DNA of 38,445 nucleotides, taken from contig JAKPXC010000021.1 in NCBI GenBank assembly GCA_029567705.1, forward strand, positions 1 to 38,445, written 5' to 3'. Under the pieces are notes generated by a model. It ran no database searches, was not told the origin of the DNA, and worked only from the letters and a program-made list of their open reading frames with translations. Each line of letters opens with the position of its first letter. Within the stretch, counting starts at the first letter, position 1. Origin of the DNA: Candidatus Cloacimonadota bacterium. GTDB lineage: Bacteria > Cloacimonadota > Cloacimonadia > Cloacimonadales > Cloacimonadaceae. The translations under genes and the position numbers were made by a program. Positions 3,035 through 23,311 of the stretch are shown piece by piece.

Positions 3035-4441
3035 TTACTTCCGCTTTTCCATGGCTTTCAGGAAGTCCTTGCCAAAGAGCTTGTTCTGCATTATTATTTT
3101 GGCCCCGGTGAAGATTTGCTGAGGACGCATGGCACCTGTTTTAATGCTCTTGATGGCCAAGGGAACCAAGCGCCAGCCCTTGGAAAGATAAATCTGCCTG
3201 TAGGCTTTGGGCATGAAGGCTTCCAAATCATGAGGTTCCATACCCAGGGGTTGATACACGCAGTGGGCGATATCGTAATCTTCCCAATTGTAATGCAGGA
3301 TACGATTCTCTTTCTTTAGTTTATCAAAGAGCTCTGTGCCCGGCAGGGGTGTGAGAATGGAGATCACCAGATAACCCAGCTTGCGGGCTTTGAAGAAATC
3401 CAGATTCTTTTGCAGATACTCCGGGGTGTCATACTCATCGCCGGAACCCAGGATCATATACCAGTTGTGGGTCATCCCGATCTTGTCCATCACTGCAATA
3501 GCTCTGTCTATATCGTTCAGATCGATATTTTTGTGCATGCGCTCTATCACTTCCGGAATACCGCTCTCTATACCAATGGAAAGCAGAGAGCATCCGGCAC
3601 GGTGCATCAGGGCAATGAGCTCCGGTTCTTTGGCGATGATGCTCACACGGGACATGGCATTCCAGCGAATCTTGATCCTTTCGGTGATCAGGCGGTTACA
3701 GAAATCCGTGAGCCAGGCTTTGTTGACTGTGAGGTTATCATCGTGAAACCAGAATTGATCGAAGCCCCAGCTCATATAGTCCTTGAGATCGGTGATCACT
3801 TCATCAACGGTGCGTTGCCGGTATTTTCCGCCGTAGAATGCAGAAATCGAGCAGAAGGAACAGCGGAAGGGACAACCTCGGGAGGAGACCAGCTTGGGGC
3901 TGAAGCTAAATTCCGGAGCTACCAGATCGAGAGTGATCCGGGGCAGATGCGCCAAATCGTCCAGGATGGCTATGACCTCATCGTTGAAACAGATGCCATC
4001 TTGGCAATAAACCATGCCAGGAATGTCCGGATACTTATTGCCGGCTTCCAGAGCCGCCAGGAGCTTCACAAAGACTTCCTCACCCTCTCCTCTGCAGATA
4101 TAATGAACGTCCGTCTCCTGGAAAATCTCCTTGTACATGAAAGTGGCATGATGACCGCCGATAACGGTGGGAAGCTCAGGATACTTTTGGCGAATGTGGA
4201 TCAGGAGTTCCCGTGCCACAGGATAGGTGGCGGTTACACAGGATACACCCACCAGATCGGGCTGATAACGGCGTATGTAACGATCGACGCTCATGGCATC
4301 GGCAATCACGACCACTACTTTGTGTCCGGCATCCCGGGCAGCAGCGGCAATAAATAACAAGCCCTGGAGAATCTGATTCCCCGTGCGCAAGGCTTCCAAG
4401 CCTCCGGTGTGAGACTTGGGCGAGACAAGCAGTACCTTCAT
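3035..4441 (-). CDS. B12-binding-domain radical SAM protein
   Basis: A 468-aa enzyme. Residues about 1-130 look like the cobalamin-binding Rossmann-type domain found before radical SAM domains (MKVLLVSPK start, then PDLVGVSCVT), although the base-off motif DxHxxG is not visible. The radical SAM core (about 180-390) has CxxxCxxC at C190, C194 and C197 for the 4Fe-4S cluster. Relatives include methyltransferases and cyclases such as BchE and hopanoid or lipid-modifying enzymes; the substrate here is unknown. The ATG at 4441 has AGGGGAA upstream. It follows rex by 60 nt and is the last gene of the long minus-strand operon, so a role connected with the membrane system upstream is possible but unproven. 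Confidence 0.85.
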   Translation of the reverse strand: MKVLLVSPKSHTGGLEALRTGNQILQGLLFIAAAARDAGHKVVVVIADAMSVDRYIRRYQPDLVGVSCVTATYPVARELLIHIRQKYPELPTVIGGHHATFMYKEIFQETDVHYICRGEGEEVFVKLLAALEAGNKYPDIPGMVYCQDGICFNDEVIAILDDLAHLPRITLDLVAPEFSFSPKLVSSRGCPFRCSFCSISAFYGGKYRQRTVDEVITDLKDYMSWGFDQFWFHDDNLTVNKAWLTDFCNRLITERIKIRWNAMSRVSIIAKEPELIALMHRAGCSLLSIGIESGIPEVIERMHKNIDLNDIDRAIAVMDKIGMTHNWYMILGSGDEYDTPEYLQKNLDFFKARKLGYLVISILTPLPGTELFDKLKKENRILHYNWEDYDIAHCVYQPLGMEPHDLEAFMPKAYRQIYLSKGWRLVPLAIKSIKTGAMRPQQIFTGAKIIMQNKLFGKDFLKAMEKRK

Positions 4442-4501
4442 TTGTTCCCCTATCCGGCAAGACCACGATCCTGCCGTTAATTCAATCCCTGCTGATTCGG
4501 A

Positions 4502-5134
4502 TTATTCGGTGTGTTCTTTTTCGGCCAGCCGTCTGGAAAGAACCGCCAGCGAAGCGAACATATCCACATTCTCCACGATAATATCGGTGGGAACATGGAG
4601 CTTTTGAGGAGTGAAGTTCCAGATGGCCTTGATACCGCTGTGAACCATGAGATCTGCCACAAGCTGGGCAGCTTCCGGTGGAACAGTGATGATGCCTATC
4701 TGAACTTTTCTCTTCGGAGCCATCGTAGTGATATCTAGCACAGAATACACAGGAACACCATGAGTAGTGGTGTTGATCTTATCCGGATCGTTATCAAAGG
4801 CAGCCACGATGGTAAGCCCGCGTTGAGAGAACTCCTGATAGCCCAGGAGAGCTGAGCCCAGATGACCCACCCCCACCAGATAACTGGAGGAAGTGTCACA
4901 CCAATTCAGGAGTTCCTCAATCGCATTGGCAAGTTTCTTGATATTATATCCGCTTTGAGGGATGTTGTTGATATTCGTATAGGATAGGTCCTTACGTACC
5001 ACGGTCTGGTGGAAATCGGTAAAGACTGAGATCTTGGTGGCGGAAACTTCTCTGAGTCCCGCCCGGGCAAATTGCTTCAGGACTTCCAGATATTGTGGAA
5101 GCCGCTTCAGAGTGGAGGTTGGGATCCTATCCAT
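4502..5134 (-). CDS. rex: Redox-sensing transcriptional repressor Rex
   Basis: A 210-aa Rex-family regulator of normal length. The N-terminal winged helix (about 1-80) contains the family pattern IPTSTLKRLPQYL and the recognition region near SATKIS. The NAD(H)-binding Rossmann domain (about 81-205) has the glycine motif G88-V-G90-H-L-G93. Rex dimers bind operators when NADH/NAD+ is low and release when NADH rises, controlling fermentation and respiration genes. The start at 5134 has AGGAGC 9 nt upstream. It begins 12 nt after the 943-aa membrane protein, so it is probably expressed with that system. I saw no clear Rex box near the operon start. Confidence 0.95.
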   Translation of the reverse strand: MDRIPTSTLKRLPQYLEVLKQFARAGLREVSATKISVFTDFHQTVVRKDLSYTNINNIPQSGYNIKKLANAIEELLNWCDTSSSYLVGVGHLGSALLGYQEFSQRGLTIVAAFDNDPDKINTTTHGVPVYSVLDITTMAPKRKVQIGIITVPPEAAQLVADLMVHSGIKAIWNFTPQKLHVPTDIIVENVDMFASLAVLSRRLAEKEHTE

Positions 5135-5146
5135 GTTTATATGCTC

Positions 5147-7978
5147 CTATTCTACTGGGAAAGCATTGATAAAGCCCATGTAATGCAAGCTGGAAAGGAT
5201 GGTGCCGATGATCATAAAGATTACGATCAGGAGCTTGAAGCCATCCTGCGCTTTGAGCATGGAGACAATATCCGGGTTCTTGGAAAGATATGCTGAAGCA
5301 GCATAGAACTCTTCCCCAATCAGAGTGTAATCGCAAGTGGTGATGAAGAACGGTATCTGCGTGATGGCATCCGAGGCAGCTATCTGGATAGCGCCGCATT
5401 GGTTGCCTGTCTCCGTCATAAGCAGAGCTTCAGCATTGAAGTAGCCCATGTAGAAGATGGTGGCCACCCGGTCACGGATGGTGATGCCGTTGACGGCTGC
5501 CGAGAAGGCAAACTGTACATCGGATACGTAGAAGATATCGTTCTGGTTGTAGCTATCGGGTCTGCCGATCTCGCTATATGCAGTCTTGACCACTTCCTGT
5601 GCCAATGGCACTACGAAGTAATCCACATGCGGAGAGATCAGACGAACGTCAAACTCGGCAGTCTTGCGGGCTACCTGAGAGAGGATCATCATGGCAGAGA
5701 TGGTGCAGGGATCACCCAGAGTTCCCCAGCCGGGGACAAACATCACGGGACGCCCCATTTCTGTGGCTCTTCCCACGGCGTTATCAAGCTCGGCCAATCC
5801 GGCAATGGGACGAATATAGGGATCCTTGCTGCGGGACACAAAGATGCCGTAGATCACCAGGAAGAAGAGAATCAAGCTGGCTATCAGCGTGATGACCTTG
5901 GTATCGTCAAACCATTCATTCTTGGGATAAAACCAGGTGCTGCCGGCTTTGCTGTATATCTCTGATGTGTTGTAGAGCCCACGTCCATTGGTCACCAGCA
6001 TCTGGTAAGCGTAGCTGCGGAAGTTCTTGTCCCTTTCTCTCAGGAAGACCTTCAGCCAGGCAGCCTTGCCTTTCTTGGTGGCAGCTTCCAGCACAGCGGG
6101 ATGTTTCTTGGTGAATTCCAAGGTTGCTTTATCAGAGGCCAGCACTTGCCGGATGGAATCTGCCTTGGCCGTATCGATCGTGGTGGCAAAGAGGTTTGTG
6201 CCTTCTGCGACTTTGCGCTCCAATTCCTTGATCTGTCCCTCAAACTCCTCTTTGAAGAGAGGAACTTTCAAGGCCGCACCATAGGTGGTGTCTGTATCAA
6301 CCGTCACGAAGGGATTGAGCTTGAAGCGATGGCTGCTCTTGTCGTAACCCATCAGGGGTTGATAGAGCATATCTTCATAATTGATGGTGTGGGTATACCC
6401 GCGGGACATACCACCCATGCGGATACCGGGAACGAAGTTGTAATCCAGCTTGTTTGTGGAAATCAGGTCATAATACAGACGGTTAAGCCTCTGCCCTGCC
6501 AGTTCCACTTTGTTGCCGCTGAACCGGCGGTTTGCCTGATCATAAGCCAGATGCTGGATCATCTCGTCTTTCGGATAATCCTTGTCCCCTGTACTCATCA
6601 CGGCAATACGGACAGTGATATCATTCAGGTTCGCCTTACGTGTAGCAGGCAGTTTCAGGTGAATGATCTGATCCATATAATGCTCTGTGATGGTACCGAG
6701 TGCCGCCCCGGATTCATCGAAAAACTGGAATCTGACTTTTTGGATGTTGTAAGCTTCGTTGGCGGAAATCTCATAGTTGATTCTCAGACGGTTGCGGTTG
6801 GCATTGGTGTAAGCAGCTTGTGAGATCATCACCAGAGGCTTACCTATGGAGATATAGAGGTTATCGCCCTTGTCATTGCGCTTATCCAGCACCTTGAAAT
6901 TAGGAAGAGTGGGAATCTCCGAGCTTAAAGCCGTGTGGATTGGCCTGCCCATGCTATAGGCATAAAAACCGTTGTAGTCCATGTATCCCAGCACCAAGGC
7001 ATAAGCCTCTGTATCAAAAGCTTCTGGCATGCCAAGCTCCGCGAGGGCTACAGTATGATAATAGGTACTGGCTTGGGACATGTTCTGAATCTGGAAGAGA
7101 GGACGGGCACTGCCTTTCCACTCTGAAGCAAAGTCCATCTGAGCTTCTGCTTCTGCATTCTTGGCCTGAGCTGCATCAAAAGCAGGTACTGCCGTCTTGG
7201 GCAGCAGATATCCTTCCCAGAGAGCTATATCGGTAGCCACTGAGGGAGGATTCCATTCCAGGCGAAGCTCTTTGTTATCGGTCACCAAAACAGAATTGAC
7301 TGTAGCAGTGGGATCGGGACGATTATCCTCGGGCACCACTTCTTTCACATCTGCAAAAGGTAAGTATTGTCCACGTTCATTGACGCCCAGCACTGTGTAA
7401 TAATACTTCTGTCCGGCCACAACGTTGGCCAGGATGTATTCAAACTGATTAAGCTTCAAGCCTGCAGTAAAGCTGCTATCGGCTTCCACAAGCTTCTTGC
7501 TGTGTTTATAGTAATTCTTGCTGCCCACCATGCCGAGCACGGAATAACGATCCAATATACTCGCCAGGACGGCAGGATCACGGGGAACGCCTTTGAGCAA
7601 CGGGCTGTTCTCTTTCTGTCCCTTTTCCCGTTTAATCTTGCCGGGAGCCGTCTCAAAATCCACCAGGGTGGGATAGTCTTTATCATAGAAAAAGAGCTCT
7701 TCGCTCAAGACTCCCATCTTGGGATCCACTTCCAGATGGCTGAGGAAGAACAGGCTATCGGGATGAACTCCACGATATACATTGTATTGAATGATGCGCT
7801 TGGATTTATCCAGGGGTTTCCAGCGCAGAAGCACGCCGGAACCATCGTCGTAATTAATATCCTCGGCAGTGAACTGCATGATCTTGCCTTCTGTAGCCGG
7901 GTCTACATTGCGATCCGAGAGCAGAAGACTGAAGATTCCCAGAACTACCAAGGCCAGGATGATCAGGTATCTTTTCAT
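5147..7978 (-). CDS. Large membrane protein, FN3-like ectodomain plus conserved cytoplasmic domain
   Basis: A 943-aa protein of unknown function. A signal anchor (about 1-21) is followed by an extracytoplasmic region with fibronectin-III-like stretches (about 42-72 and 185-260, e.g. YNVYRG, YYYTVLGVNERG), a coiled coil (about 573-625), a transmembrane helix (about 694-714) with basic residues after it, a conserved domain (about 722-905) and a last helix (913-935). By the positive-inside rule that domain is cytoplasmic. It contains IRPIAGLAELDNAVGRATEM and IPFFITTCDYTLIGEE; I believe this is Pfam DUF6754, from memory and unchecked. It is a paralogue of the 975-aa protein at 10524-13451. AGGA lies upstream of its ATG; rex follows by 12 nt. 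Confidence 0.85.
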   Translation of the reverse strand: MKRYLIILALVVLGIFSLLLSDRNVDPATEGKIMQFTAEDINYDDGSGVLLRWKPLDKSKRIIQYNVYRGVHPDSLFFLSHLEVDPKMGVLSEELFFYDKDYPTLVDFETAPGKIKREKGQKENSPLLKGVPRDPAVLASILDRYSVLGMVGSKNYYKHSKKLVEADSSFTAGLKLNQFEYILANVVAGQKYYYTVLGVNERGQYLPFADVKEVVPEDNRPDPTATVNSVLVTDNKELRLEWNPPSVATDIALWEGYLLPKTAVPAFDAAQAKNAEAEAQMDFASEWKGSARPLFQIQNMSQASTYYHTVALAELGMPEAFDTEAYALVLGYMDYNGFYAYSMGRPIHTALSSEIPTLPNFKVLDKRNDKGDNLYISIGKPLVMISQAAYTNANRNRLRINYEISANEAYNIQKVRFQFFDESGAALGTITEHYMDQIIHLKLPATRKANLNDITVRIAVMSTGDKDYPKDEMIQHLAYDQANRRFSGNKVELAGQRLNRLYYDLISTNKLDYNFVPGIRMGGMSRGYTHTINYEDMLYQPLMGYDKSSHRFKLNPFVTVDTDTTYGAALKVPLFKEEFEGQIKELERKVAEGTNLFATTIDTAKADSIRQVLASDKATLEFTKKHPAVLEAATKKGKAAWLKVFLRERDKNFRSYAYQMLVTNGRGLYNTSEIYSKAGSTWFYPKNEWFDDTKVITLIASLILFFLVIYGIFVSRSKDPYIRPIAGLAELDNAVGRATEMGRPVMFVPGWGTLGDPCTISAMMILSQVARKTAEFDVRLISPHVDYFVVPLAQEVVKTAYSEIGRPDSYNQNDIFYVSDVQFAFSAAVNGITIRDRVATIFYMGYFNAEALLMTETGNQCGAIQIAASDAITQIPFFITTCDYTLIGEEFYAASAYLSKNPDIVSMLKAQDGFKLLIVIFMIIGTILSSLHYMGFINAFPVE

Positions 7979-8017
7979 TTCTTTATCCTAAAGGTCTAAC
8001 CAGATATGGATTCATCA

Positions 8018-8051
8018 GGATGCCGTGAGCAGCAATGCGCTCACGACATCC
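8018..8051 (-). other. Stable intercistronic hairpin inside the operon
   Basis: Thirteen-base arms (8018-8030 and 8039-8051) with an 8-nt loop; the one mismatch reads as a G.U pair in the minus-strand RNA, so the stem is fully paired. It has no T run after it, so it is not a typical terminator. It occupies the only long gap (87 nt) among the five membrane-system genes, between the 200-aa and 943-aa genes, and could set mRNA processing or stability. Confidence 0.6.
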
Positions 8052-8065
8052 CATGAACAGCTATG

Positions 8066-8668
8066 CTATTTTAATGCGCCAAAGACGTCGTTTACCAGGA
8101 ACTGGATACGACCAATCAATAGCGAAATACGAGCCATAACGGTGAGTCCGAAGGAGGCACCGAAACCGATCATCATATACCATTTGCCAACATCGACAAA
8201 CTTGCCATACACGCCTGTGTGAGCCTTCGAGAAGAAGAAATACAGGAGCACGGCAATGGTTCCGATGAAGATCAGAGCCAGGTTTACACTCTCCAGCGGC
8301 ACCATCGCCTGACGCATCTGCACCAGAATGAAGGTGTGCATGGAAAGAGGCACGCTGGCACCCACACCCATCATGGAAAAGGCGATAGGGTAACGGGAAA
8401 GCCAGCTCAGTTTACGGTTGAAACGCAGGATGTAGAATATACCCATGATGGAGGGAATAATCAGGATCCATTGTTGTTTGAGAATCATAGGTTGATACAG
8501 GAAGGGAACGAACACACGGGTGTAGGTCAGCACCAATCCGTATCCCAGCGAGATACCCACCAGAAGCTGTTCCGCCATCTGGTAGAAAGGATTGTCCTTG
8601 TACAAGAACGAGAAGATACACAGTGTGAAGAAAGCTCCGACCAGGTTACTAAACAATTCAAATGACAT
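8066..8668 (-). CDS. Polytopic membrane protein of the FN3/DUF6754 cluster (200 aa)
   Basis: A 200-aa protein starting MSFELFSNLV, with about six or seven hydrophobic segments: near 3-20, 32-50, 62-80, 90-110, 125-148 and 158-178, plus a short one at the end. I do not recognise the family. The frame is open further upstream, but ATG 8668 has a textbook AGGAGG and avoids overlapping the neighbour, so I chose it. It sits 10 nt after the 395-aa gene and belongs to the same operon. With the 209-aa protein it could form the membrane-embedded core that the large bitopic proteins contact; that is inference from context only. Confidence 0.85.
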   Translation of the reverse strand: MSFELFSNLVGAFFTLCIFSFLYKDNPFYQMAEQLLVGISLGYGLVLTYTRVFVPFLYQPMILKQQWILIIPSIMGIFYILRFNRKLSWLSRYPIAFSMMGVGASVPLSMHTFILVQMRQAMVPLESVNLALIFIGTIAVLLYFFFSKAHTGVYGKFVDVGKWYMMIGFGASFGLTVMARISLLIGRIQFLVNDVFGALK

Positions 8669-8678
8669 TATTCCCTCC

Positions 8679-9866
8679 TTATTTCTTGGCTTGACGCGAC
8701 TTGGAGATGAAGTAACCAATGTTGCCCAGGATGATGAAGACGATGATCATAATGTGAGCAACGGACTGAGCGTTCATGCCTATACGGGCTACTTTAAACT
8801 TATAGAGAATATTGCGGGTCATGCGGTTCAGATCCTTCCAGGCCAGAGGACCCATCTCGTCCTGCTGAGCTTTGGAGACCTGAGTCACGTCTATCTTGAC
8901 CTTGCCGTTATCCATGGTTTTGATTGCATCAAAGACAGCCTTCTTCTCCGGATACTTGGCGGTGAAAGCCTCATAATCCGCAGGACTGAAAGTGGCAATG
9001 TTCTGAGTGGTGATATTGATCAGCTCCTTAGTGGATTCATCCTGAAGCAGCTCACGGCTGAAGGGACGTCCGGGAACAATCTTGTTGCCATCTTCATCGG
9101 TTTGAACCGTGATGGGAGAATCGGGTTCACGATAGGCTCCAAAGACATCAACCAGCTTCTCATATTCTGCAGCACCTTTCAGGCCGGCAAGCATGCCGAT
9201 GAACTGACCGGATTGCAGGTAAGGATACTGATCGGCAGCCATAACGGCGGTCACACCCACAGCCACGTTCAAACCGAACTTGGGACGGGCGTAAACGATC
9301 CAATAGGAACCTGCCACACTGCCGGAGAACTCCACAGCGAGGTTCATTTCACTGTAGTTATTGATCCCCTTCATAATGGGCAAACTCTCGATCTTGCGGC
9401 CTTCAGCATCGGTCTTCACGGTAGCGGCGATGTTATCTCCCATACCAATAACGGTAGGCATGGCAAGAGTGCCAGGGATGTAACCAAAGTTACAATAATC
9501 CACACCGCTGACGATATTGGGATACTCTTCTTTAACACTGTTGATGGCAAAGTCGATCACCGGAGCACCGGAAGGCAGCCAGGTGAGTGTGAAGACTTTC
9601 ACATTACGTTCAAAGCAATGTCTGAGGATGGCAATCTCCATGGGGAAAAGCTCCGGCATGGTGGATGCATCGTGATAGAAACTTAGCAGAATAGCTCTGT
9701 CTTCACGGCCGGCAAAGCTATCGATCATCTGATACAGATTCTCGGTGGGCGGAGTAGTTACGTTATCCGAATTGTAGGGAATCATGAGCGGAATAACTAT
9801 GGCAAGAGCCACAACTATATAGATCCACCTACGATCAAGAGCCTGGATTCGTTCAAAAAAGTTCAT
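8679..9866 (-). CDS. Bitopic protein with large extracytoplasmic domain (395 aa), unknown
   Basis: A 395-aa protein with a transmembrane helix at each end (about 14-30 and 367-387). Basic residues lie before the first helix (LDRRW) and after the last (SKSRQAKK), so both termini should be cytoplasmic and residues about 31-365 extracytoplasmic. That domain starts with an alpha/beta-looking part (AILLSFYHD, VKVFTLTWLPSGAPVID) and has a striking segment near 240, YPYLQSGQFIGMLAGLKGAA. I know no function. The start at 9866 has AGGAGGAG upstream. The 15-nt and 10-nt gaps to its neighbours place it in the membrane-system operon. Confidence 0.85.
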   Translation of the reverse strand: MNFFERIQALDRRWIYIVVALAIVIPLMIPYNSDNVTTPPTENLYQMIDSFAGREDRAILLSFYHDASTMPELFPMEIAILRHCFERNVKVFTLTWLPSGAPVIDFAINSVKEEYPNIVSGVDYCNFGYIPGTLAMPTVIGMGDNIAATVKTDAEGRKIESLPIMKGINNYSEMNLAVEFSGSVAGSYWIVYARPKFGLNVAVGVTAVMAADQYPYLQSGQFIGMLAGLKGAAEYEKLVDVFGAYREPDSPITVQTDEDGNKIVPGRPFSRELLQDESTKELINITTQNIATFSPADYEAFTAKYPEKKAVFDAIKTMDNGKVKIDVTQVSKAQQDEMGPLAWKDLNRMTRNILYKFKVARIGMNAQSVAHIMIIVFIILGNIGYFISKSRQAKK

Positions 9867-9881
9867 CTATTCTCCTCCTGA

Positions 9882-10511
9882 TCAATCACCGCCGCCCAGA
9901 TATGAGCGTTCGATACCAAGTAATATTTTCAGTGTGGTCGCCACACTACCAAGTCCCACGCCCAAAGCTATACCGCGTTTGGAAGCGAGGTTTGGAACGT
10001 CCAGAATCCATTGGGAGATATCCGGCAGATGCCTGGAAATTTTTACGCCCAGCGGCACCTGTGCCAGCATCACCACAATAGCTGCCACCAGCAGCACTGT
10101 GGCTTCCAGGCTTCTGGCCCGGAAAGCTTTGTAAGCGGCTGAAGCCATGTAGAAGGCCAGGAGAGAGAACATCGTGGAGCTCATGGGCATCTGCATGTTT
10201 TCAAACATCCACATAAAGAGGCCACCCTTCTGGGTTCCACCAATAAATCCCGCCAGGGTTGTTACAACAAACCCGGCAAAGAAGAAGAAGCTGTATTGCC
10301 ACTTGGGAGCCTTTCTGCGTATCTTGGCAGAGTGCATCATGGAAAGGCTGATCACGCCCAAAAGCGCCGCAAAGGGTGCCATGGCACGTGCCCAGGGCAG
10401 ATAGAATTGATTGTAGAAGTCATCCTGGATGATCTTGTGCGGAGAGAAGGCCCAGAACACCCAGATCAAACCTCCGATCATGACTATCAGTAATGGTACG
10501 GTCTTTTTCAT
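9882..10511 (-). CDS. Polytopic membrane protein of the FN3/DUF6754 cluster (209 aa)
   Basis: A 209-aa hydrophobic protein with about five or six transmembrane helices (near 4-22, 42-60, 72-90, 106-125, 137-155 and 178-198). I do not recognise the family. Notable loops include GGTQKGGLFMW and LPDISQWILDVPNLASKRG. The ATG at 10511 has GAGG 6 nt upstream, and the gene begins 12 nt after the 975-aa gene, so it is the second gene of the operon. Its size and position beside bitopic ectodomain proteins suggest a structural or channel-like component, but nothing in the sequence proves transport. Confidence 0.85.
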   Translation of the reverse strand: MKKTVPLLIVMIGGLIWVFWAFSPHKIIQDDFYNQFYLPWARAMAPFAALLGVISLSMMHSAKIRRKAPKWQYSFFFFAGFVVTTLAGFIGGTQKGGLFMWMFENMQMPMSSTMFSLLAFYMASAAYKAFRARSLEATVLLVAAIVVMLAQVPLGVKISRHLPDISQWILDVPNLASKRGIALGVGLGSVATTLKILLGIERSYLGGGD

Positions 10512-10523
10512 TAAAGCCTCGCT

Positions 10524-13451
10524 TTATTTCGTGGGAAGAATATTATTAAGTGCTGTGATCTGGAAGGTGGAGAGAATACCACCGGCGATGATCACACTGA
10601 GAATCAGGAACTTGAAGTAGTCTTGGGCCTTCAGGGTTCCCAAAAGCATTGGTTCACGGTTCAGATAAGCTGATGCGGCATAGAGCTCTTCGCCTATCAG
10701 GGTATAATCGCAACTGGTGATGAAGAAAGGTATCTGGGTAACGGCATCGGTTCCTGCCACTTGAATGGCGCCAATGGAGTTCCCGGTTTCTGTCATCAGA
10801 AGCGATTCTGCAGCGAAATAGCCCATAAAGAAGTTTGTAGCGGCTCTTTCACGCACCATGATTCCGTTGAAACCTGCCACATAGGCAAATTGCATATCGG
10901 TCAGGAAGAAGATATTGTTCTTATCATAGGTATCTGGACGTCCCACTGCGTAGTGGGCTTCACGAACTATTTCCTGAGCGATGGGCATGATGATGTAGTT
11001 GTAGCAGGGAACGATCAGCTTGGTATCATATTCCGCAGCTTTCTTGGCAACCAGTCCCAAGATTCCCAGAGAGGCAAGAGTGGCGACGTCTGATAGCCCA
11101 CCATTACCCATGGAGAAGAGCATGGGACGTCCCATTTCGGTAGCGCGGCCAATGGCATTGTCGATCTCACTGAGTCCTGCGATGGGACGGATATAGAGGC
11201 TCTTACCCTGCTTGGCCAAATGCACAAAGACAAAGACCATTGCGGCAAAGAGCAGAGACGTAAAGAGGGTTACCCACTTGTTCTGGTCAAACCAGTTCGA
11301 GATCGGGATATAGTAGTTGAAATCCTCTTCTTTAGTTTGATCCAGATCAGATTCCGTGATGGCACCACGACCGTCTGTGCGGGTGATACGATAGGTCTGA
11401 TAACGGCCATCGGGTTCACGCACTGAACCGATATAGCGCATCCGGGATCTCTGACCCTTGATCTGATTGGCTCGTTTCAGATACTTATTGTTCTGGTAAG
11501 CAGCCAGTTCTTTTTGCACACTCTCAAGCTGAGAAGTGATTCTGGGCATCTGAGCAGCGGCAAGGGCTGGAGGAAGGCTATCCAGGGAAGCCTTGGCGGC
11601 ATTCAGTTCCGCTATCTGATCTTCCAGACCGGAGATGGTCTCCTGCAGGTCTTTGGCGGCTTCAGAGGCAAAGAGTGTGGTGTTCAGAGTGGTCTCGGCT
11701 TCTTTATCAAAGACTAAGTCTATGGAAGGAGAAACAAGTGTGAAGCTTCCGCGGTTATCGCCCTTTTGCAGAGCTCTGGCAGTCCGTTTGCCTTCGATGA
11801 TGGTAACCAGTGAATCACCTTCCACAAAGCGGAATCCGGAAATACCACGGGTGATGGTGGTGGGATAAGGAATCACCACGTCCAGATTGTTATCGTAAGC
11901 AGTATTGCTTTTTATCAGAGTGAATTGGGAACCACGCAGGCTCTTACGGTAAACCACATTCTGCAGCCTGGAAACTTCCACGCCATTACGGTAAAGCTGA
12001 CGACTGGGCATCAGAGACATCATCTGGTCGTCCCTGGCAAGATTCTGCTCTATCACATACTCTTTATTGATCCTGGGCTTCCAATCCATAGTAATCTTCA
12101 CTTTGAATCCGGACTTGTAATCATAACCAGCCGGCACACGCAACATGATGCTGTTATCCGGGTAGAATTCGTTTATCCGTGCAAAGGATTGGCTTTCACC
12201 GGCTTTGAAGAATTCGAAATAGATGTTCTTGACTTTCTGAGTCTCGGCTTTGTTCAATTGATAGTTCACGCGGAGGCGGTTGCCACGGCTGTTGGTGATG
12301 CTGGTCTTGGTTACAAAGACAATCGGATCATCCCAGAGCACTGTGAGTCTATCTCCCTTATCGTTGGGCTTATCCTCCACCTTAAAGGTAGGTTTGGGAG
12401 GAAGCTGAGCCACGGTGATCGGTCTCACATTTGCCGGAGCGGACATGGATGCCATACCCTGGGAATCGACAAAGCGAATAGCAAAACGGGAAGCCTTCAG
12501 CCTTTCCGGGCTCAGACCCTGCTCTGCCAATTGAGTAAGAGGAATCTGCGTATAATTTGGCAAAGCTCCTCCGCCGACTCCTCCCTGAGCGATCACCTGC
12601 AAAGCTTCAGCCGGGATACTGTCTTTCACCGCCATCCAGGCTTCAGAGCTCATTCCATCCGGAATCATCACTATCTGATAAGCCTGCAGATCATCTTTGA
12701 AGAGCGGGAAGTTCCACTCAAAATTCAGGCTGTTGCCATCTTCCACCAAGCTGCTGTAGAGGCTGGTGGCAGGTTCCGGAGCATTGGGAACCGGCATGCC
12801 GGAGCCCACCGGAGCGGGAGTATAAAACTTGTTGCGTTCGTTTACAGCAACTACAGTGTAATAATAGGTCTCACCATTGCGCAGGGCGGCATAGATCATC
12901 TGTTGATGCATCTTTACCCCTGCATAGGTGGAGGAATCCGCGGGGTCGGCAGAATTCAGTTTGGTGGCGCGTTTATAAAGATCCGCTTTATCCACGATAC
13001 TGATCAGATCAAGCTTCTCTGCCATGATTGAGGCAATCTTCTGATCCCTGGGAACATTACGATAGAGCGGGCTATCAGGACCCTGTTGCTTCTCTTTCTT
13101 GAGCTTGCCGGGGGATTCGATGTCGATCAGAGGATTGTAGGAAGTATCGTAGTAATACATCCGGTCGGATGCCACACCAGTCTTCACATTCACTTGCACG
13201 GAGGCATGATAGAAAAGGGTGTCCGGCGATACTCCACGGTAAATACGGTATTCAATAACCCGTTTGTCCTTGTGTAGGGGTTTCCAGCTCAGGATCAGGC
13301 CGGTGCCATCATCAAAAGGCACATCCTCAATCTTGAAGTCCTGGACCACATTCTGACTGCTCGTCTCTTGCTTCTGGGCAATAATCACTGTCACAACAGC
13401 AACGAAAACCAAGAGCATAGCGAGGATTAAACGACGTCTGTCTAACCTCAT
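10524..13451 (-). CDS. Large membrane protein, FN3-like ectodomain plus conserved cytoplasmic domain (paralogue)
   Basis: A 975-aa paralogue of the 943-aa protein downstream, with the same layout: signal anchor (about 7-25), fibronectin-III-like stretches (about 45-75 and 190-260), a coiled coil (about 593-655), a transmembrane helix (726-745), the conserved cytoplasmic domain (752-940, probably DUF6754) and a final helix (947-965). The cytoplasmic parts are strongly alike (IRPIAGLSEIDNAIGRATEM, IPFFITSCDYTLIGEELYAA), the ectodomains much less so, as expected if they bind different partners outside but share one inside. AGGAG lies 8 nt before ATG 13451. It is the first gene of the apparent seven-gene operon. 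Confidence 0.87.
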   Translation of the reverse strand: MRLDRRRLILAMLLVFVAVVTVIIAQKQETSSQNVVQDFKIEDVPFDDGTGLILSWKPLHKDKRVIEYRIYRGVSPDTLFYHASVQVNVKTGVASDRMYYYDTSYNPLIDIESPGKLKKEKQQGPDSPLYRNVPRDQKIASIMAEKLDLISIVDKADLYKRATKLNSADPADSSTYAGVKMHQQMIYAALRNGETYYYTVVAVNERNKFYTPAPVGSGMPVPNAPEPATSLYSSLVEDGNSLNFEWNFPLFKDDLQAYQIVMIPDGMSSEAWMAVKDSIPAEALQVIAQGGVGGGALPNYTQIPLTQLAEQGLSPERLKASRFAIRFVDSQGMASMSAPANVRPITVAQLPPKPTFKVEDKPNDKGDRLTVLWDDPIVFVTKTSITNSRGNRLRVNYQLNKAETQKVKNIYFEFFKAGESQSFARINEFYPDNSIMLRVPAGYDYKSGFKVKITMDWKPRINKEYVIEQNLARDDQMMSLMPSRQLYRNGVEVSRLQNVVYRKSLRGSQFTLIKSNTAYDNNLDVVIPYPTTITRGISGFRFVEGDSLVTIIEGKRTARALQKGDNRGSFTLVSPSIDLVFDKEAETTLNTTLFASEAAKDLQETISGLEDQIAELNAAKASLDSLPPALAAAQMPRITSQLESVQKELAAYQNNKYLKRANQIKGQRSRMRYIGSVREPDGRYQTYRITRTDGRGAITESDLDQTKEEDFNYYIPISNWFDQNKWVTLFTSLLFAAMVFVFVHLAKQGKSLYIRPIAGLSEIDNAIGRATEMGRPMLFSMGNGGLSDVATLASLGILGLVAKKAAEYDTKLIVPCYNYIIMPIAQEIVREAHYAVGRPDTYDKNNIFFLTDMQFAYVAGFNGIMVRERAATNFFMGYFAAESLLMTETGNSIGAIQVAGTDAVTQIPFFITSCDYTLIGEELYAASAYLNREPMLLGTLKAQDYFKFLILSVIIAGGILSTFQITALNNILPTK

Positions 13452-14417: not shown

Positions 14418-17400
14418 ATGATGGAAGACCGTTTTAGTCACTTGGTACAGAATTCTTCTGACTGGATTATGATAATCAGCAGAGAAGGGCAAATGATCTA
14501 TTCCAGTCCGGCTGGGCTCAAGATTGTGGGGCCTCAACAGATTGAAGTTATGCAGACCCGACACATCCTGGAGCTTGTGCATCCCGATGATCGCGCCCGC
14601 ATCGACGAGGTTTTTTCCGATCTGGTCCTGAACTCTGGAAAGACCATCACAGAAGAGCTGCGCATCAAAACAGACTTTGGTACTTATATCTGGATAGATG
14701 TAGTGGCCTCCAGCCTGCTGAATGACCCTTCCGTGGAAGGTATTGTGGCAAATGTGAGGGATATCACCTCCAGAAAGCAGACGGAAATGTTGCTGGAACG
14801 GCAACGTATCTATACAGAATCTTTGTTGAAGGCGATCCCGGACTTGCTGTTTGTGATCGCACCGGATGGCACCATTGCCGATATTAAAGCCGGGCAGGGA
14901 GATGAAACTCCCTATCCCGCTCATGAGTACATTGGCAAGAAGTTTTACGATGTCCTTCCCCAGAATGTGGCAGAAGGCTTCCGCATGGCACAGCAGAACC
15001 TGCTACAGGGAATTGCTGTGGATTCCTTCAAGTATGAGCTTTGGTCTGGCGATCAGACCCTTGAATATGAGGCCCGTTTCAGTACTCTAGGCGGGAAAAT
15101 GATGATCGCCCTGGTTCGAAATATCACTCAGATACGCCGGGCGGAGAAGTCTCTCAAGCATCAGAACCGCTTCTTAAGACTCCTCACTGAGATGTCCACA
15201 AACCTGGTAAAATCCGTGCTGGAGAATGTGGATGCCGTTCTTGCGGAAGATCTGATGAAAGTGGGCGATTACTTTGGTGCGGACAGGGTTTGCATCAGTG
15301 AATTCAATTCAGACGCCAAATTGTTCATCAAGACTCATTGCTGGGATCGAGGAGGAGATTCTTCTGAGGGAGTCCTGTTCTCGGAAATCTCAGCCAAAGA
15401 TTTACCGCTCAGTTACCAAAAGATACTTGCCGGGGAGATCTTGGTGCTTTCGGAGACTCAAGATTGCCCGGACATGCAGCTTGCGGAAAAGGACTATTTT
15501 CTCAGAGCCGGCATCAAGACCCACGTTTCAGTACCGCTCCTGAATGGTGAAGAGGTGCTGGGCTATCTGGGCTTTGAATTCATTCATAGTGAAGCACGCC
15601 TCTCTGAAGCAGATATAGATAATCTGTGGGTCTTGGCCAATCTTTTGGCTGAAGCACTTCAGAAGATATCGATTGGGAAGCGCTTGGAATCTGTGTCCGA
15701 GATTCAAAACATCCTCAATCGTATAGCCATGCACTATATAAACCTGCCGGTCGAGGAGCTGGAGAGCTCTATCACCGAGTCTCTGGCGGAGCTGGCTGTA
15801 TTCACCCAGGTAGACAGAGCTTATATCTTTGATTACCATTGGGATAGAGGTATATGCACAAATACCCATGAGTATTGCGCTCCGGGGGTATCCTCCCATA
15901 TTGCTGAGCTCCAGGCAGTTCCTCTGGCCGAGATATCCGAATGGGTGGAGAATCATAAACAGGGCAAACCTGTCCGCATAGACGACATCTCTCTTCTGGA
16001 TCCCGAGAGCAGCGTATATATGCTTCTGAAGCCTCAGAATGTAAAAAGCCTCTATACACTGCCTATGATGAATGAAGGCAAGTGTATCGGATTCGTAGGC
16101 TTTGACTCTGTGAAGAAGACCTATTGCTACACTGAGAAGGAAAGGCTGATGCTCCAGCTCTTCTCTCAGCTCTTTGTAAACGTGAAGAACCGTACTCTGC
16201 TGGAGCAAAGACTTATCAGCGAGAAGGAAAAAGCCGAAGCCGCCAGCCGCGCCAAGAGCGAATTCCTTGCCAATATGAGCCACGAAATCAGGACGCCACT
16301 CAATGGCATCATTGGCTTCACAGAGCTCCTCTCTCACACCATTATGAACCCCCAGCAGACTCAATACACCCAGAATGTACTGAACTCCAGCTATAATCTC
16401 TTGAGTATAGTAAACGATATCCTGGATTTCTCCAAGATCGAAGCCGGCAAGATGGAGCTTAACCCTGTGGAAACTCCTCTGCCGGAACTGCTTTTGAACA
16501 TGGTCGATGAGATGGAAGAGAAAGTGGCGCAGAAGGGTCTGGATTTCATCCTGGACTTGCCAAGCGATCTTCCCAAGCGAGTCATTATCGATGCTCCCCG
16601 CCTGACCCAGATTCTCAAGAACCTTCTGGAAAACGCCCTTAAATTCACTTCAGCCGGTGAAATTGAGCTGAAAGTGCAGTGCAAGAAAGAAACCGCCAGG
16701 CAGTGGGTGCTGGAATTCAGCGTGAGAGATACCGGAATAGGAATCGGCAAGATCCAGCGGGAAAGGCTGTTCAAAGCCTTCTCCCAGGTAGATTCTTCCA
16801 TCACCCGCAAGTATGGAGGAACCGGGCTGGGCCTGGTGATCTCGAACCATCTGGCTGTCCTGATGGGCAGTGGTATTCTTCTGGATAGCGAAGTTGGCTT
16901 TGGTTCACGCTTCTACTTTGATCTGGCATTTGAGAAGTTACCGAAAAACGAAGACGAGAAATACCCTCTATTACCTCTGCCCAAAAGACCCCACAGAGTA
17001 TTGGTGATAGACGACAATCCCAGGGTCAGAGAGGTTATAAAGCGAGACTTGGCAGACCTCGGCTCGAGCTCCACCTCCTGCGACAACCCTGAAGAAGCGC
17101 TCAGTCTGTTGACTCCTGATGCCAAGTTCGATCTGGCTTTGCTGGACAGCGGCCTGAAGAACGAAGAGTCAAAGAAACTACTGGAGACTCTGAAGCAGTT
17201 CAATTGCACAGCAGTTCTGCTTCATACCATCCTGGAACCCAAGGATCTTTTGGAAGCCGCACAGCAGGAAGGCTTTGCCTACTGTCTGCGGAAACCCCTC
17301 CGTCCCGGAGAGTTGGAACCCATCTTGGTAAATCTTGAGAAAGAAGAAGAGAAGGCAAATGCACCTCAAGCCTTTACTCCCACTGCCAAAGCCCCCGGCC

Positions 17401-18155
17401 AGGCCCCCAAAATTCTGGTGGCCGAGGATAATTCTTTGAACCTCAGCCTCGTACGGGAGTTACTGAAAAAGGCAGTTCCCGGCCTGGAAATCGCAGAAGC
17501 CAGGGAAGGAGAATCTGCAGTTCGTATGGTCAAAGAATTCCAGCCCGATATCGTGCTTATGGATGTGCAAATGCCGATTATGGATGGCGTGAAAGCCACT
17601 CAGGCTATCAGGGAGTTTTCGCTACTACCCATTATTGCACTCACTGCCGGTGCGCTCAGCGAAGAACGGGAAAGATGCCTGAACGCCGGAATGAACGACT
17701 TCCTCACCAAGCCTGTCTCGGCTACTGAGCTTCAGGACACGCTATACAAATACCTGAAGGTCTCCCAAAAAGCCATCAAGGCAGCAGCCCTCTCCGGAGC
17801 TGAAGATCACTTCAATATGGCCAAGCTTCGCACCAATCTCTCCGATGACGATGAAGTGATGCTCAGCCTCCTGCTGATGTCCAAATCCAATTTCCCGGAT
17901 AAGTTTAGTACTCTCAGCGATCAGATTCGCCAAGGTCAGGGTGATCTGGCCAAGAAAACGCTTCACACCATCAAAGGCTCGGCAATGAATATGTTCTTCA
18001 TACGCTTGGGAGAAATGGCTAAAACCTTTGAAACCGAGTATAATGAGCTTGGGGCAGAGGAAAAGGTTAGCCGCCTTTCAGAGATGCACGAAGAATGGAG
18101 CAATCTCACTCACCTGATCGCAGAAGCCGAGGATATGGTCCGAACTCCTCAATAG
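14418..18155 (+). CDS. Hybrid sensor histidine kinase (PAS-PAS-GAF-GAF-HisKA-HATPase-REC-REC-HPT)
   Basis: A 1245-aa soluble multidomain kinase with no transmembrane segment. Domains: PAS about 1-115, PAS about 125-245, GAF about 265-415, GAF about 430-595, HisKA with H622 in [11 protein letters not shown], and HATPase about 720-840 ([21 protein letters not shown]). The first receiver (about 860-970) has D865/D866, D910 and K959 and is divergent. The second (about 998-1115) has D1049 in LMDVQMP and K1098. A C-terminal HPT domain has H1183 in HTIKGSA. The full phosphorelay can thus run inside one polypeptide to an unidentified output regulator. ATG 14418 has AGAGG upstream. No response regulator gene lies next to it. 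The ligands of PAS and GAF are unknown; cytoplasmic cues are implied. Confidence 0.93.
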
Positions 18156-18980: not shown

Positions 18981-21900
18981 TTATTTCATCAGGACCATCT
19001 TGCGGGTGCTGCTGTAGCTGCCGGCTTGCATCTTGTAGTAGTAGATACCACTGCCGATGCTGCGGCCGGTGTTGTCGGTACCGTTCCAGACGATGCTGTG
19101 GTTTCCGGCTTCACGGCTTTCGTTCATCAGGCTCTTCACAAGCTGACCGCGGGCATTGTAGATATCAATCCGGACAGGACCGGCAGCAGCTGTGCTGAAG
19201 CTGATCGTGGTCTCGGGATTGAAGGGGTTGGGATAGTTGCCCAGCAGGCTGGTTTGCAGGCCGGGAACCACGATGTCTTCGTTGCTGACGCTTCCGCCAT
19301 TGGAATGAACTGTGAAGTCATCCACATAGAAGACAAAGGCGTCATTGGAGACACAACGGATACCGATGTATACCTGCTGTCCATCATATTGAGCCAGATC
19401 GTAGATGTATTCTGTCCAAGCGGTGGGTGCTTCCACATAGGTGCCGCCACTGACATACTGGAAGCCCTGAGGAATGATCGTGGCAAGGGTGCTCACGCCA
19501 ACTCTGAAGCGTTCCAGACCGTATTGGGCGGTGTGGCTCTTGGCATAGAATTTCAGCTTGCTGCCGGTGCCCAGAGTCATTCTGGGGGTAACCATCCAGT
19601 CGTTGTTGGGAGGTGTGGTTCCGGCAAAGCTGGCTGCCATCTTGGCACCGCTGTGGGTGGTGATGGTGGTCACAGGAGGAACCGTGGCGGAAGGATTGAA
19701 GACCATAAAGGCCATCGGAGCTCCACTGCCGGGGAATTCCACATCGGTAATGCCATAGGTGGTGGATTGATCCACGTCGATCGTCGTCCAGGGATTGAAG
19801 ACGGTGGCAAAGTCTGTATAGGCTTCGAAATCCGTGCCAAAGAGCACAGGAGGAAGCACGACTTCAACGGTGACTTCAACGGTGGCGGGATCGGATTCAC
19901 CGGTGGTATGGGTGGCAGTTACACCATAGGTATAGGTGCCATTGGCCACGTCCATATCTGTGTAAGTAGTGACGGCAGGATCGGTGATGGTGCCGAGCAG
20001 GACGTTGTCGCGATAGACCTTGAAACCGGTTACAGGACGGGTGGCAGGAACTTCATAGCGTCCCAGAGCCAATTCGCCGGTGCTGATAGCACGGGGAGCT
20101 TCGACGATGGGGCTAAGTTCCACGGCCTTGGTGGCTGCGCCAGTCTGGGCAAAGGCCTTCACAGACCAGTTGTAGGTGAGGGTCGGAGCCAGGGCAGTAA
20201 GTGTAGTCCAAGCGCCTTGGAAATACATCATATTGCCTTTACCTTCGATCTGCGGACCGTCATCGCAACCGGCAGGATATCCACCCTGGGTGTCGACGCC
20301 GAAGCCGTAGTAGAGGTCACCGGTGGTGGGAATCGGAACGGGGGTGTTGAGCACCACAAGGTTCCAATCGCCAATGGTGGGGGCAGTTACGACCTGAGAG
20401 GAGACCAGAGTTCCGGCATTGGAGGCGGAGCCGCCGGTCCAGACTTTCACGGTGTAGGTGCAAGCTTCATAGGCAGGCACGAATTTGATCTGAGTAAGGG
20501 TGCGTCCGGCATAGGGAGCCAGGTCGGCTTGAGTCCAGCGGTGAGCCACGTCGAAGGTGGCAGCGCTGTTGGTTCCCACGGAGTTGCCCAGAGCTTCTGT
20601 GGCCCAGGTGATCCAGTCACCGGTGGCAGGAGGCTCGGGATTGTCCCAAGTGAGGGTTACATCATTGCCTTCCACGCTGGCAGCCAGGTTTTCGGGCATG
20701 GCAAGGGCATCGGTCACGACTGCGGTCGCAGGACCGGCAGGGACGGATTCGCCGCCATCGTAGTAAGCAGTGACGGTGTAGCTGTAGTTACCGGCCACAA
20801 GACCGTTATCGGCATAGTCTGTGGTGGCAGGGTTGCTGACTGTGGCAATCAGGGTGCCATCGCGATAGACCTTGTAACCAAGCAGGTCACGGGTCACAGT
20901 GCGCATAGCAGGAGCCACGGCCTGGGCGATGCCCATCTGACGGGTGTGGTTTCCGGGAGCAGGCTGCAGGTTGGCAAGAATCTCGCCACGGGCTGCAGGT
21001 GCGCCAACGTAGAAATCGTCCACCAGGAAGATGAAGGCGTCGTTGGATAGGCATTGGATGCCGATATAGACATTCTGTCCGGCATAGGCCGTCAGATCAT
21101 AGCTGTATTCTGTCCACTCAATCGGAGCCTGGATATAGCTGGCACCGCTGATGATGGTGAAGTTGGCGGGAGCGGTTCCGGTGGTGGAAACACCAACCTT
21201 GAAGCGTTCCAGTCCGTACTGGGCAGTATAGCTCCGGGCCCAGAACTTGACCACATCGCCACCGGCAACAGTGAGCTGCGGGGTAATCATCCAGTCGTTG
21301 TTGGGAGGTGTGGTGCTGGCAAATGCCGCTGCCATCTTGTCTCCGCTGTGGGCAGGAAGATCAGTGAGGGCGGGAGTGGTGGCACTTTGGTTGAAGATGA
21401 TGTAGGCTTGGGCGGCATAGCCATTGGTCCAGGTGATGCCGGTCATGCCGTAGGTGGTGGATTGATCCACATCAACCAGAGTCCAGGGAGCGAAGGCTAT
21501 GGAGAAGTTTTCATAGGTCTCAAAACCATCCACAAATCCTTCCGGAGGAGGAGGTGTCTCACCCGGGGCATCCCAGTTTAGGGCTACGTTGTAACCGCTC
21601 ACTGTGGCTGTCAGGTTCGTGGGAGGATCGAGAACGTCTGTAAGAAGCTCCATGCTCACTGTATCAATGTAGAGATAGAACATATCTGTTTCGCTGTAGC
21701 CCTTGAAACCAAAGTAGTAGGTACCGGCAGTGGTCGGAGCTAGAGGTAACTGAACTGTCTCATAAGTGATGTTTGTGATGCTCTCGTTTGACCAAAGCAT
21801 ATTGGTCATAGCTTCTGCTGTGGGAGCGGTTCCCCAATAGACAGCAAGTTTCTCAGCATAAGTGGCGCTGGCTGCGCGATACTTGAAAGTAAGCCTGTAG

Positions 21901-23144
21901 TTTGTATCTGCAGTCATGGCAAAAGGAGGCATCACCAGCCAGTCGTTCATAGGGATTGTGGTGTTGTAACGAATGCGGGCGCTGTTGGGTGCTGTGTCGG
22001 CATTACCGGCATAGGTTTCCCAGGCATAGGTATCGCCATTGGCATTGATGGTGGTCCATCCCAGAGGCAGAGCAGGAGGAGTGAGAGTATCAAAGTTCTG
22101 CTCGTAAGGATAGGTGGTCACAGTGGGATCTGCCAAAGTGGTGAAGCTCCAGACAGGGCAATCCACGGCATCACCAAACTGATTGTAAGGAACTATCTTC
22201 CAATAGTAGGTGGTGCTGTAAGCGAAATCTGCAGGATCATAAGTAGTGGCTGTCTGTGTGGTTCCGTTCACCAGGTTGGTGGGAGGATTGTCTGTACCCA
22301 AATAGACTTTGTAACCATCTGTCACGCCACCGCCAACCAGCCAACTGAGGTTGGCATTGGAGGCAACGTTGACAGCGCCATTGGCAGGAGTGGGATTCTG
22401 AGCGGCCAAGGGAGGCTCTCCTGCGACAGCCGGAGCAAAAGTGAAGGTGAGGCCGGCAGCAGGGAAGACTGTGGCACTGAGGGTGCAGTTGTTGTTGGCA
22501 GCAGTACCGGCAGTGGTGGCAGCCCAATCCGTGGTGGTGGTACGATTGTTAAAATCTGTTACGCTATCTCCACGCAGACCAACCTGAATAGCAGCGGCTG
22601 TGGCGGCTGTCACTGCGGTGATGGGTCCGTAAACAAAGGCAACCTTGTTGCCGTTTTCGTGGAGTTGAATCTGGAAATTAAGGACATCGTTCACTGTGGT
22701 GGTGGGAACTCTGCGATAGTTCTTCCATTGCACGGTGAAGATACGATTGGGAGCTGTTCCGCTCAGGAGATACATCAACTCACCGGTATCGCGGCTCTTG
22801 AGATCGCGGCTCAGGCCGGCAACCAGATTGTTAGAGGCACCTGCGGTGGTGGTGCTGATAGGCACGTTTGAAGTGACGGCGACATCGCCCATCACTACAA
22901 AGCCGTTGCAGGCTACGCTAACGGTGGAATAATCCACTCCGTTGTAGTTGAAGACAAATCCCAGAGGGATTGCATTGAAGGTCTCTTGGTCGTTCAAATT
23001 TGAACCGAGGACTGTTCCTCCACTGATTTCTGTGTAGGCAGCCTGAGTGGAAGTGAACGAATACTCGCTCACAACAGCAAAGGCGCTGAGCGCTACAAAG
23101 CTAAAGATCAGTAGAAGAAGATACTTTTGGATACTGTTGAACAT
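18981..23144 (-). CDS. Large secreted multidomain protein with T9SS-type sorting domain
   Basis: A 1387-aa secreted protein. The signal peptide (about 1-24, KYLLLLIFSFVALSAFAV) is followed by a beta-rich N-terminal domain (about 30-245), an FN3 domain (about 250-340), three regions like the choice-of-anchor J / MAM-like fold (about 345-500, 535-715 and 1100-1280) and further FN3 units (about 755-810 and 1035-1095). The C-terminal domain (about 1300-1387) contains NYPNPFNPETTISF and GSGIYYYKM, typical of Por/type IX secretion or FlgD-like sorting domains. Anchor regions 2 and 3 are close copies (VDVDQSTTYG / IDVDQSTTYG), indicating internal duplication. The start was moved to ATG 23144, which has AGGAG and opens the signal peptide. 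Probably surface-exposed, for adhesion or polymer binding; no catalytic motif seen. Confidence 0.88.
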   Translation of the reverse strand: MFNSIQKYLLLLIFSFVALSAFAVVSEYSFTSTQAAYTEISGGTVLGSNLNDQETFNAIPLGFVFNYNGVDYSTVSVACNGFVVMGDVAVTSNVPISTTTAGASNNLVAGLSRDLKSRDTGELMYLLSGTAPNRIFTVQWKNYRRVPTTTVNDVLNFQIQLHENGNKVAFVYGPITAVTAATAAAIQVGLRGDSVTDFNNRTTTTDWAATTAGTAANNNCTLSATVFPAAGLTFTFAPAVAGEPPLAAQNPTPANGAVNVASNANLSWLVGGGVTDGYKVYLGTDNPPTNLVNGTTQTATTYDPADFAYSTTYYWKIVPYNQFGDAVDCPVWSFTTLADPTVTTYPYEQNFDTLTPPALPLGWTTINANGDTYAWETYAGNADTAPNSARIRYNTTIPMNDWLVMPPFAMTADTNYRLTFKYRAASATYAEKLAVYWGTAPTAEAMTNMLWSNESITNITYETVQLPLAPTTAGTYYFGFKGYSETDMFYLYIDTVSMELLTDVLDPPTNLTATVSGYNVALNWDAPGETPPPPEGFVDGFETYENFSIAFAPWTLVDVDQSTTYGMTGITWTNGYAAQAYIIFNQSATTPALTDLPAHSGDKMAAAFASTTPPNNDWMITPQLTVAGGDVVKFWARSYTAQYGLERFKVGVSTTGTAPANFTIISGASYIQAPIEWTEYSYDLTAYAGQNVYIGIQCLSNDAFIFLVDDFYVGAPAARGEILANLQPAPGNHTRQMGIAQAVAPAMRTVTRDLLGYKVYRDGTLIATVSNPATTDYADNGLVAGNYSYTVTAYYDGGESVPAGPATAVVTDALAMPENLAASVEGNDVTLTWDNPEPPATGDWITWATEALGNSVGTNSAATFDVAHRWTQADLAPYAGRTLTQIKFVPAYEACTYTVKVWTGGSASNAGTLVSSQVVTAPTIGDWNLVVLNTPVPIPTTGDLYYGFGVDTQGGYPAGCDDGPQIEGKGNMMYFQGAWTTLTALAPTLTYNWSVKAFAQTGAATKAVELSPIVEAPRAISTGELALGRYEVPATRPVTGFKVYRDNVLLGTITDPAVTTYTDMDVANGTYTYGVTATHTTGESDPATVEVTVEVVLPPVLFGTDFEAYTDFATVFNPWTTIDVDQSTTYGITDVEFPGSGAPMAFMVFNPSATVPPVTTITTHSGAKMAASFAGTTPPNNDWMVTPRMTLGTGSKLKFYAKSHTAQYGLERFRVGVSTLATIIPQGFQYVSGGTYVEAPTAWTEYIYDLAQYDGQQVYIGIRCVSNDAFVFYVDDFTVHSNGGSVSNEDIVVPGLQTSLLGNYPNPFNPETTISFSTAAAGPVRIDIYNARGQLVKSLMNESREAGNHSIVWNGTDNTGRSIGSGIYYYKMQAGSYSSTRKMVLMK

Positions 23145-23282
23145 AAGTACTCCTTTCTTGTAGTCAAAACTTATATACTTCCATCCGGATCGGCTCCTGC
23201 CAACTAACTGCAGCAGAATAGGTATCCGCTTTGAACTTGATTCCCAGCGATATGCAAAACATGCGCCAAAACCGGATATTAA

Positions 23283-23311
23283 CAAGCTAAAAATCACTTC
23301 TATCATGTCAA
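23283..23311 (-). promoter_or_regulatory. Putative promoter of the surface protein
   Basis: On the minus strand TTGACA (23311-23306), 16 nt, TAGCTTG, about 138 nt upstream of the start at 23144. It fits the TTGACA-N16-TAKCYTG pattern seen elsewhere in the window. Confidence 0.45.

Follow-up and report, generated by a model that had tools for sequence, protein, structure and literature searches.

A DUF6754 membrane gene module of Cloacimonadota and its candidate ATPase partners across bacterial phyla

Which cellular machine, if any, is built from a run of membrane protein genes that match no described system is the question raised by a locus of a Candidatus Cloacimonadota genome. The locus lies in a stretch of 38,445 nucleotides, here called the window, and consists of five adjacent ORFs in the order A1-B-C-D-A2, all on the minus strand and separated by gaps of 12, 15, 10 and 87 nt, exactly as a preliminary description of this DNA had reported. 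The features are listed in Table 1.

Table 1. Features of the DUF6754 locus in the window
Feature	Position in window	Strand	Description
A1	10524..13451	(-)	975 aa; predicted layout: N-terminal membrane anchor, ~700-residue extracytoplasmic region, TM helix, cytoplasmic DUF6754, C-terminal TM helix
DUF6754 domain of A1	10539..11300	(-)	residues about 718-971
B	9882..10511	(-)	209 aa, polytopic membrane protein, without Pfam family
C	8679..9866	(-)	395 aa, two-TM protein with predicted extracytoplasmic alpha/beta domain, without Pfam family
C ectodomain	8763..9767	(-)	residues 34-368, between both TM helices
D	8066..8668	(-)	200 aa from the ATG at 8668, polytopic membrane protein, without Pfam family
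A2	5147..7978	(-)	943 aa, paralogue of A1 with DUF6754
DUF6754 domain of A2	5165..5923	(-)	Pfam PF20539
Rex redox-sensing repressor	4502..5134	(-)	NF003994, 244.8 bits against a cut-off of 130

The DUF6754 locus and its recurrence as a four-gene module

The two large proteins had been proposed to be paralogues of an FN3/DUF6754-like type. Indeed, A1 and A2 share 35% identity and both match DUF6754 (PF20539), with 383.8 bits (E 4e-115) and 357.2 bits (E 5e-107), respectively, far above the gathering cut-off of 27 bits; the same domain was found in 34/34 of the A proteins tested. The FN3 part of the proposal is weak: the best fn3 scores, 18.6 bits for A2 and 13.2 for A1, lie below the Pfam cut-off of 25, and fn3 reaches E<=0.01 in 4 of the 34 A proteins, and the extracytoplasmic region of A1 is described here as weakly FN3-like with a coiled coil. 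The hydrophobic segments of A1 are at residues 8-26, 727-745 and 948-966. C had been described as a bitopic protein with a 335-residue ectodomain; the ectodomain stands, while the protein is not bitopic, since hydrophobic helices at residues 15-33 and 369-387 flank that domain on both sides.

B, C and D gave nothing over threshold in Pfam or NCBIfam, and scans of single members against Pfam (35 B, 95 C and 30 D) returned scattered matches at chance level only. Family alignments show that B proteins share across phyla a C-terminal end reading GIERSYLGG, and that D proteins carry the motifs FLYKDN, YFFFS..H.G and FGA.FG.T.M.R. For D an alternative TTG start is also listed, which gives 217 aa and overlaps C.

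Rex begins 12 nt downstream of A2 and is adjacent to it also in two close relatives; it is probably on the same transcript as A2, and it is outside the wider conserved module. Other genes of the window were noted in passing. A B12-binding radical SAM protein is encoded 60 nt downstream of Rex (3035-4441), and it is downstream of Rex also in the closest relative. Divergent from A1 is the gene (14418-18155) of a hybrid histidine kinase of 1245 aa, which combines PAS/GAF domains with two receiver domains and one Hpt domain. Beyond it, a gene at 18981-23306 encodes a secreted protein of 1441 aa that contains Cleaved_Adhesin domains and has a sorting region of the Por_Secre_tail/FlgD_ig type at its C-terminus.

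When named genomes were scanned with a 71-residue stretch of DUF6754, more than 570 places were recovered. The best 80 fall in Cloacimonadota, Zixibacteria, Fermentibacteria, Stahlbacteria/WOR-3, Coatesbacteria, Riflebacteria, Neomarinimicrobiota, Planctomycetota, Methylomirabilota, Acidobacteriota, one "Deltaproteobacteria" bin and a few others. In these loci, from about eleven phyla, B, C and D follow directly after A in 95 of 109 A genes; 10 of the remaining 14 are cut by contig or locus ends, and the four exceptions comprise a masked stretch (L055), a broken C gene (L116), a real dispersal in Thalassoglobus (L123) and locus L102. In L055 (9011-11398) DUF6754 appeared to be fused to an S49 peptidase; this was rejected as an artefact of the masked N stretch inside the ORF. 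The recurrence of an identical gene order in about eleven phyla places the cassette far beyond chance. The idea that the gene set is conserved as a unit thus holds for the four genes A-B-C-D and fails for five, A2 being an additional copy of A1 that was duplicated locally: all the complete Cloacimonadota relatives that were fetched have A-B-C-D in order, and A2 is an addition in part of them.

DUF6754 is present in 122/125 Cloacimonadota genomes, and module copies number from one to three per genome; many Zixibacteria carry two or three modules head to tail. The window's genome has a second module on another contig (C179), formed by a short A protein (367 aa, with DUF6754) followed by sB, sC and sD, each 34-48% identical to its counterpart in the window. 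This second cassette is preceded by the gene of a 268-aa probable lipoprotein (5709-6515) and followed, after 11 nt, by an AMP-dependent acyl ligase-like gene (9837-11363), both of which recur in some relatives. In the tree of DUF6754 domains two ancient module clades were separated with 99% SH-aLRT: A1 and A2 group with the last modules of the Zixibacteria arrays, the short cassette groups with nearly all others, and in the window's family the A2 copies fall together in a single clade next to A1. From this grouping, the duplication into module types appears to be older than these phyla, and A2 appears to have arisen later, inside Cloacimonadota.

The genes around the module vary by phylum and include fatty-acid genes, TonB/ExbBD, roadblock-like genes and Rex; reading a function from the flanks was therefore rejected, since the neighbours differ in each phylum and the context gives no single function. 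In six loci of Phycisphaerae-type planctomycetes, plsX-, fabH- and fabD-like genes come after the module; the window also contains a fab cluster, at about 31.9-36.3 kb, distant from the module. Five Fermentibacteria loci continue with genes for a TonB-dependent receptor-like protein and ExbB-, ExbD- and TonB-like proteins, and three WOR-3/Stahlbacteria loci with genes for a DUF4388-like protein, two roadblock-like proteins, a small membrane protein and a MotA/ExbB-like protein.

A candidate partner set of L1, L2 and p137, and the co-inheritance of L1 and L2 with the module

As a boundary of the system, the five-gene set proved too narrow: a further cluster, p137-L1-L2, lies outside the window, unlinked to the module in this genome and linked to it in other phyla. 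Forty loci have an L1 or L2 homologue next to the module, in most cases immediately upstream, and in 21 loci the small protein p137 is encoded next to it; where the linkage is most complete, the genes run p137 - L1 - L2 - A - B - C - D. This upstream linkage is common outside Cloacimonadota; the window's genome has L1, L2 and a p137 relative in a separate cluster, on contig C188.

L1 is a protein of about 620 aa that matches the MutL/GlmL family (PF13941) with 428 bits. Its ASKHA motifs DCGSTTTK, D.GGATTD.FSVF and SGG.LSHAP are invariant in 24 sequences and correspond to the phosphate-1, phosphate-2 and adenosine elements, so that an ATPase activity is predicted from the motifs. Conservation of L1 is high, with 212/619 positions invariant across phyla and roughly 60-80% identity between them. 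Its closest relatives are GlmL and the ornithine-degradation family Or-4, both accessory proteins; however, L1 scores below the curated GlmL cut-offs (226 against 475 for NF040745, and 166 against 204 for the GlmL subfamily TIGR01319) and below that of Or-4 (206 against 600). As it fails the GlmL thresholds, the name "glutamate mutase L" would be misleading. The recurrent neighbours of L1 are p137, L2 and A-B-C-D; no mutase was recognised among those neighbours that were annotated.

L2 is a protein of about 375 aa with a barrel-sandwich N-terminus, an alpha/beta middle part and a KOW-like tail. The N-terminal part matches Biotin_lipoyl in 14/24 members and RnfC_N in 10/24, and in the barrel-sandwich hairpin, the site of the lysine of carrier proteins, the family alignment has no invariant lysine. 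Natural fusions of L1 and L2 also occur, one in locus L114 and one as a paralogue encoded on contig C110 of the window's genome (locus L129). The latter, a protein of 960 aa (3500-6382), is encoded directly downstream of the genes for V-type ATPase subunits A, B, D, I and K; a link of the system with the V-type ATPase was considered and rejected, since this adjacency is missing in the other genomes checked.

L1 is present in 122/125 Cloacimonadota genomes and in 33/33 of the ABCD-bearing genomes tested outside this phylum. Most can be learned from Planctomycetota, where the system has a patchy distribution. Among 149 planctomycete genomes, A was found in 41, C in 42, D in 41, L1 in 39 (a count that omits two weak matches) and L2 in 37; all five are present in 35 and none in 105. 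The preliminary description had asked whether its gene families co-occur in other genomes, and in Planctomycetota they do: A and C are both present in 41 genomes, A only in 0, C only in 1 and neither in 107, with a Fisher p of 5e-36 that ignores shared ancestry. Pairwise p values among A, C, D, L1 and L2, calculated likewise without regard to shared ancestry, range from 1e-25 to 5e-36. The full set is retained also where the genes are far apart, as in two genomes (G181 and G294), and it is found in a Gimesia metagenome bin; in Thalassoglobus neptunius A and L2 are side by side and L1 is elsewhere.

The identity of L1 across phyla, together with the near-universality in Cloacimonadota, is a degree of conservation typical of a core cell process. 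As the set is present in planctomycetes that include cultured members, its function can be tested by gene removal.

Predicted topology, a candidate mechanism and its rivals

Confident AlphaFold2 models were obtained for C (mean pLDDT 85.5) and for residues 685-975 of A1 (mean pLDDT 90.6), each containing a TM helix, a short helix, six strand-helix units and a second TM helix. Positively charged residues precede TM1 and follow TM2 of C, which indicates that both ends of C are cytoplasmic; by the positive-inside rule, DUF6754 of A would lie in the cytoplasm and the C domain outside. Thus, C and DUF6754 are predicted to be six-unit alpha/beta domains placed on opposite sides of the membrane. A sequence homology between the two was tried and rejected, since hhalign gave E values of 0.008-0.18 over short stretches only and the real order of units scored no better than 200 permuted orders; for this reason, and with a secondary-structure variant that left the scores unchanged and contributed nothing, only a likeness of predicted secondary structure is noted.

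Across 95 aligned C sequences the residues R12, E72, P75, G100, D153, G224, E236, Q367, H371 and N382 are invariant, and the invariant polar residues that lie in or beside TM helices are Q367, H371 and N382 of C, and R180 of D. The ectodomains carry variable additions: FN3-like sequence, a PQQ propeller on one A protein and FG-GAP repeats on one B protein. From this variability it seems that different partners are recognised on the outer side, with one module type for each job. Searched against the PDB with Foldseek, neither model gave a match at E<1e-3.

The preliminary description saw in the locus one envelope complex that passes material or a signal across the inner membrane, and on sequence grounds we also infer that A-D form one complex with such a role. 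With moderate confidence, we propose that A-B-C-D are the membrane part of an undescribed inner-membrane or envelope machine that works with a cytoplasmic ATPase set formed by L1, L2 and p137. The membrane core would comprise B, D and the TM helices of A and C, DUF6754 would provide the docking face in the cytoplasm, and C together with the A ectodomain would face outward. L1 and L2 would dock at the cytoplasmic face, where binding or hydrolysis of ATP may drive an assembly step or a conformational change that reaches the ectodomains of A and C; one shared L1/L2 ATPase unit could serve from one to three module types.

The chief rival makes L1, L2 and p137 assembly or repair chaperones, and A-B-C-D a membrane enzyme or channel whose working cycle uses no ATP. 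GlmL relatives otherwise serve soluble B12-dependent mutases, and GlmL is regarded as a chaperone that assembles or repairs them; accordingly, L1 may act as a chaperone and not as a motor. The kinship of L1 with accessory proteins is in line with this, as is the single L1/L2 set that serves two or three paralogous modules in the manner of an assembly factor, and the invariant polar residues near the TM helices of C and D resemble ion or electron paths. A membrane enzyme is, however, harder to reconcile with A-D, in which no motif for a redox cofactor, a metal or B12 was recognised; Foldseek with the C and A1 models returned no enzyme match at E<1e-3, and the variable ectodomain decorations suit a recognition role better; we regard this explanation as unlikely.

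Improbable, in our judgement, is a sensory or regulatory complex, in which the ectodomain of C or A would sense the state of the envelope or its redox condition and signal to L1/L2 and to gene expression through Rex and the kinase. The closeness of Rex to A2, shared with the two relatives, and the kinase encoded divergently upstream of A1 speak for such a role, yet neither recurs as a neighbour in other phyla, the conserved set is without a DNA-binding, kinase or second-messenger domain, and the near-universality of the system suits a housekeeping role better. It is equally improbable that co-inheritance reflects a conserved operon whose membrane proteins work independently of one another: the complex is deduced from order, co-occurrence and topology, but the A-B-C-D order is invariant over about eleven phyla, whole modules are duplicated in tandem, and all parts are kept where the genes are scattered.

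For the ATPase-dependent machine that we favour, transport or envelope assembly is thought more likely as output than signalling. It is quite possible, although we would stop short of calling it probable, that the system represents an unrecognised class of ATP-powered envelope machines, in which a four-protein membrane module, with predicted alpha/beta domains on either side of the membrane, is driven by a GlmL-like ATPase and a barrel-sandwich partner, is old enough to extend over about eleven phyla and has paralogous forms dedicated to different extracellular partners.

Comparison with known systems

The job of the system is not described in any resource that was searched. DUF6754, the family carried by A1, A2 and all A homologues, has no function given in Pfam, and nothing that was found describes B, C, D, L1 or L2 as its partners. 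A literature search, beyond whose reach most subscription journals lay, retrieved no paper on DUF6754, PF20539 or PF13941 and nothing relevant on GlmL. Three of the four membrane families are thus without a Pfam model, and the fourth is a DUF without a paper found. The PADLOC models of anti-phage defence gave no match across the system, apart from a weak match of the A1 coiled-coil region to LmuB (E 0.0011). The seven named parts, with their order and co-inheritance, now offer a concrete hypothesis in place of the labels "hypothetical protein" and "glutamate mutase L".

Two known families resemble the partner proteins. L1 is like GlmL/MutL in its PF13941 match and ASKHA motifs, but it has ~130 extra residues at the C-terminus and sits with a membrane module. 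L2 resembles RnfC/NqrA and the biotin-lipoyl domains in its barrel-sandwich N-terminus, while it differs from Rnf/Nqr in the rest of the protein and in all its partners.

For the module as a whole, the preliminary description had recognised no known machine, and this was borne out: the PDB offered no convincing counterpart to the sequence profiles of A (including DUF6754), B, C and D, or to the predicted folds of C and the A1 C-terminus. A-D have no Pfam match to PilN, PilO, PilC, GspL, GspM or GspF, L2 has none to pilus components, and the recurrent neighbour families include no pilin and no PilB/PilT-type ATPase. With no homology to pilus or secretion components, the system is not filed with the PilM-PilN-PilO platforms; however, the PilM-PilN-PilO(-PilC) platform of type IV pili, in which a cytoplasmic protein of actin-like ATPase fold is combined with inner-membrane proteins bearing ectodomains, may serve as the nearest working analogy for the proposed machine.
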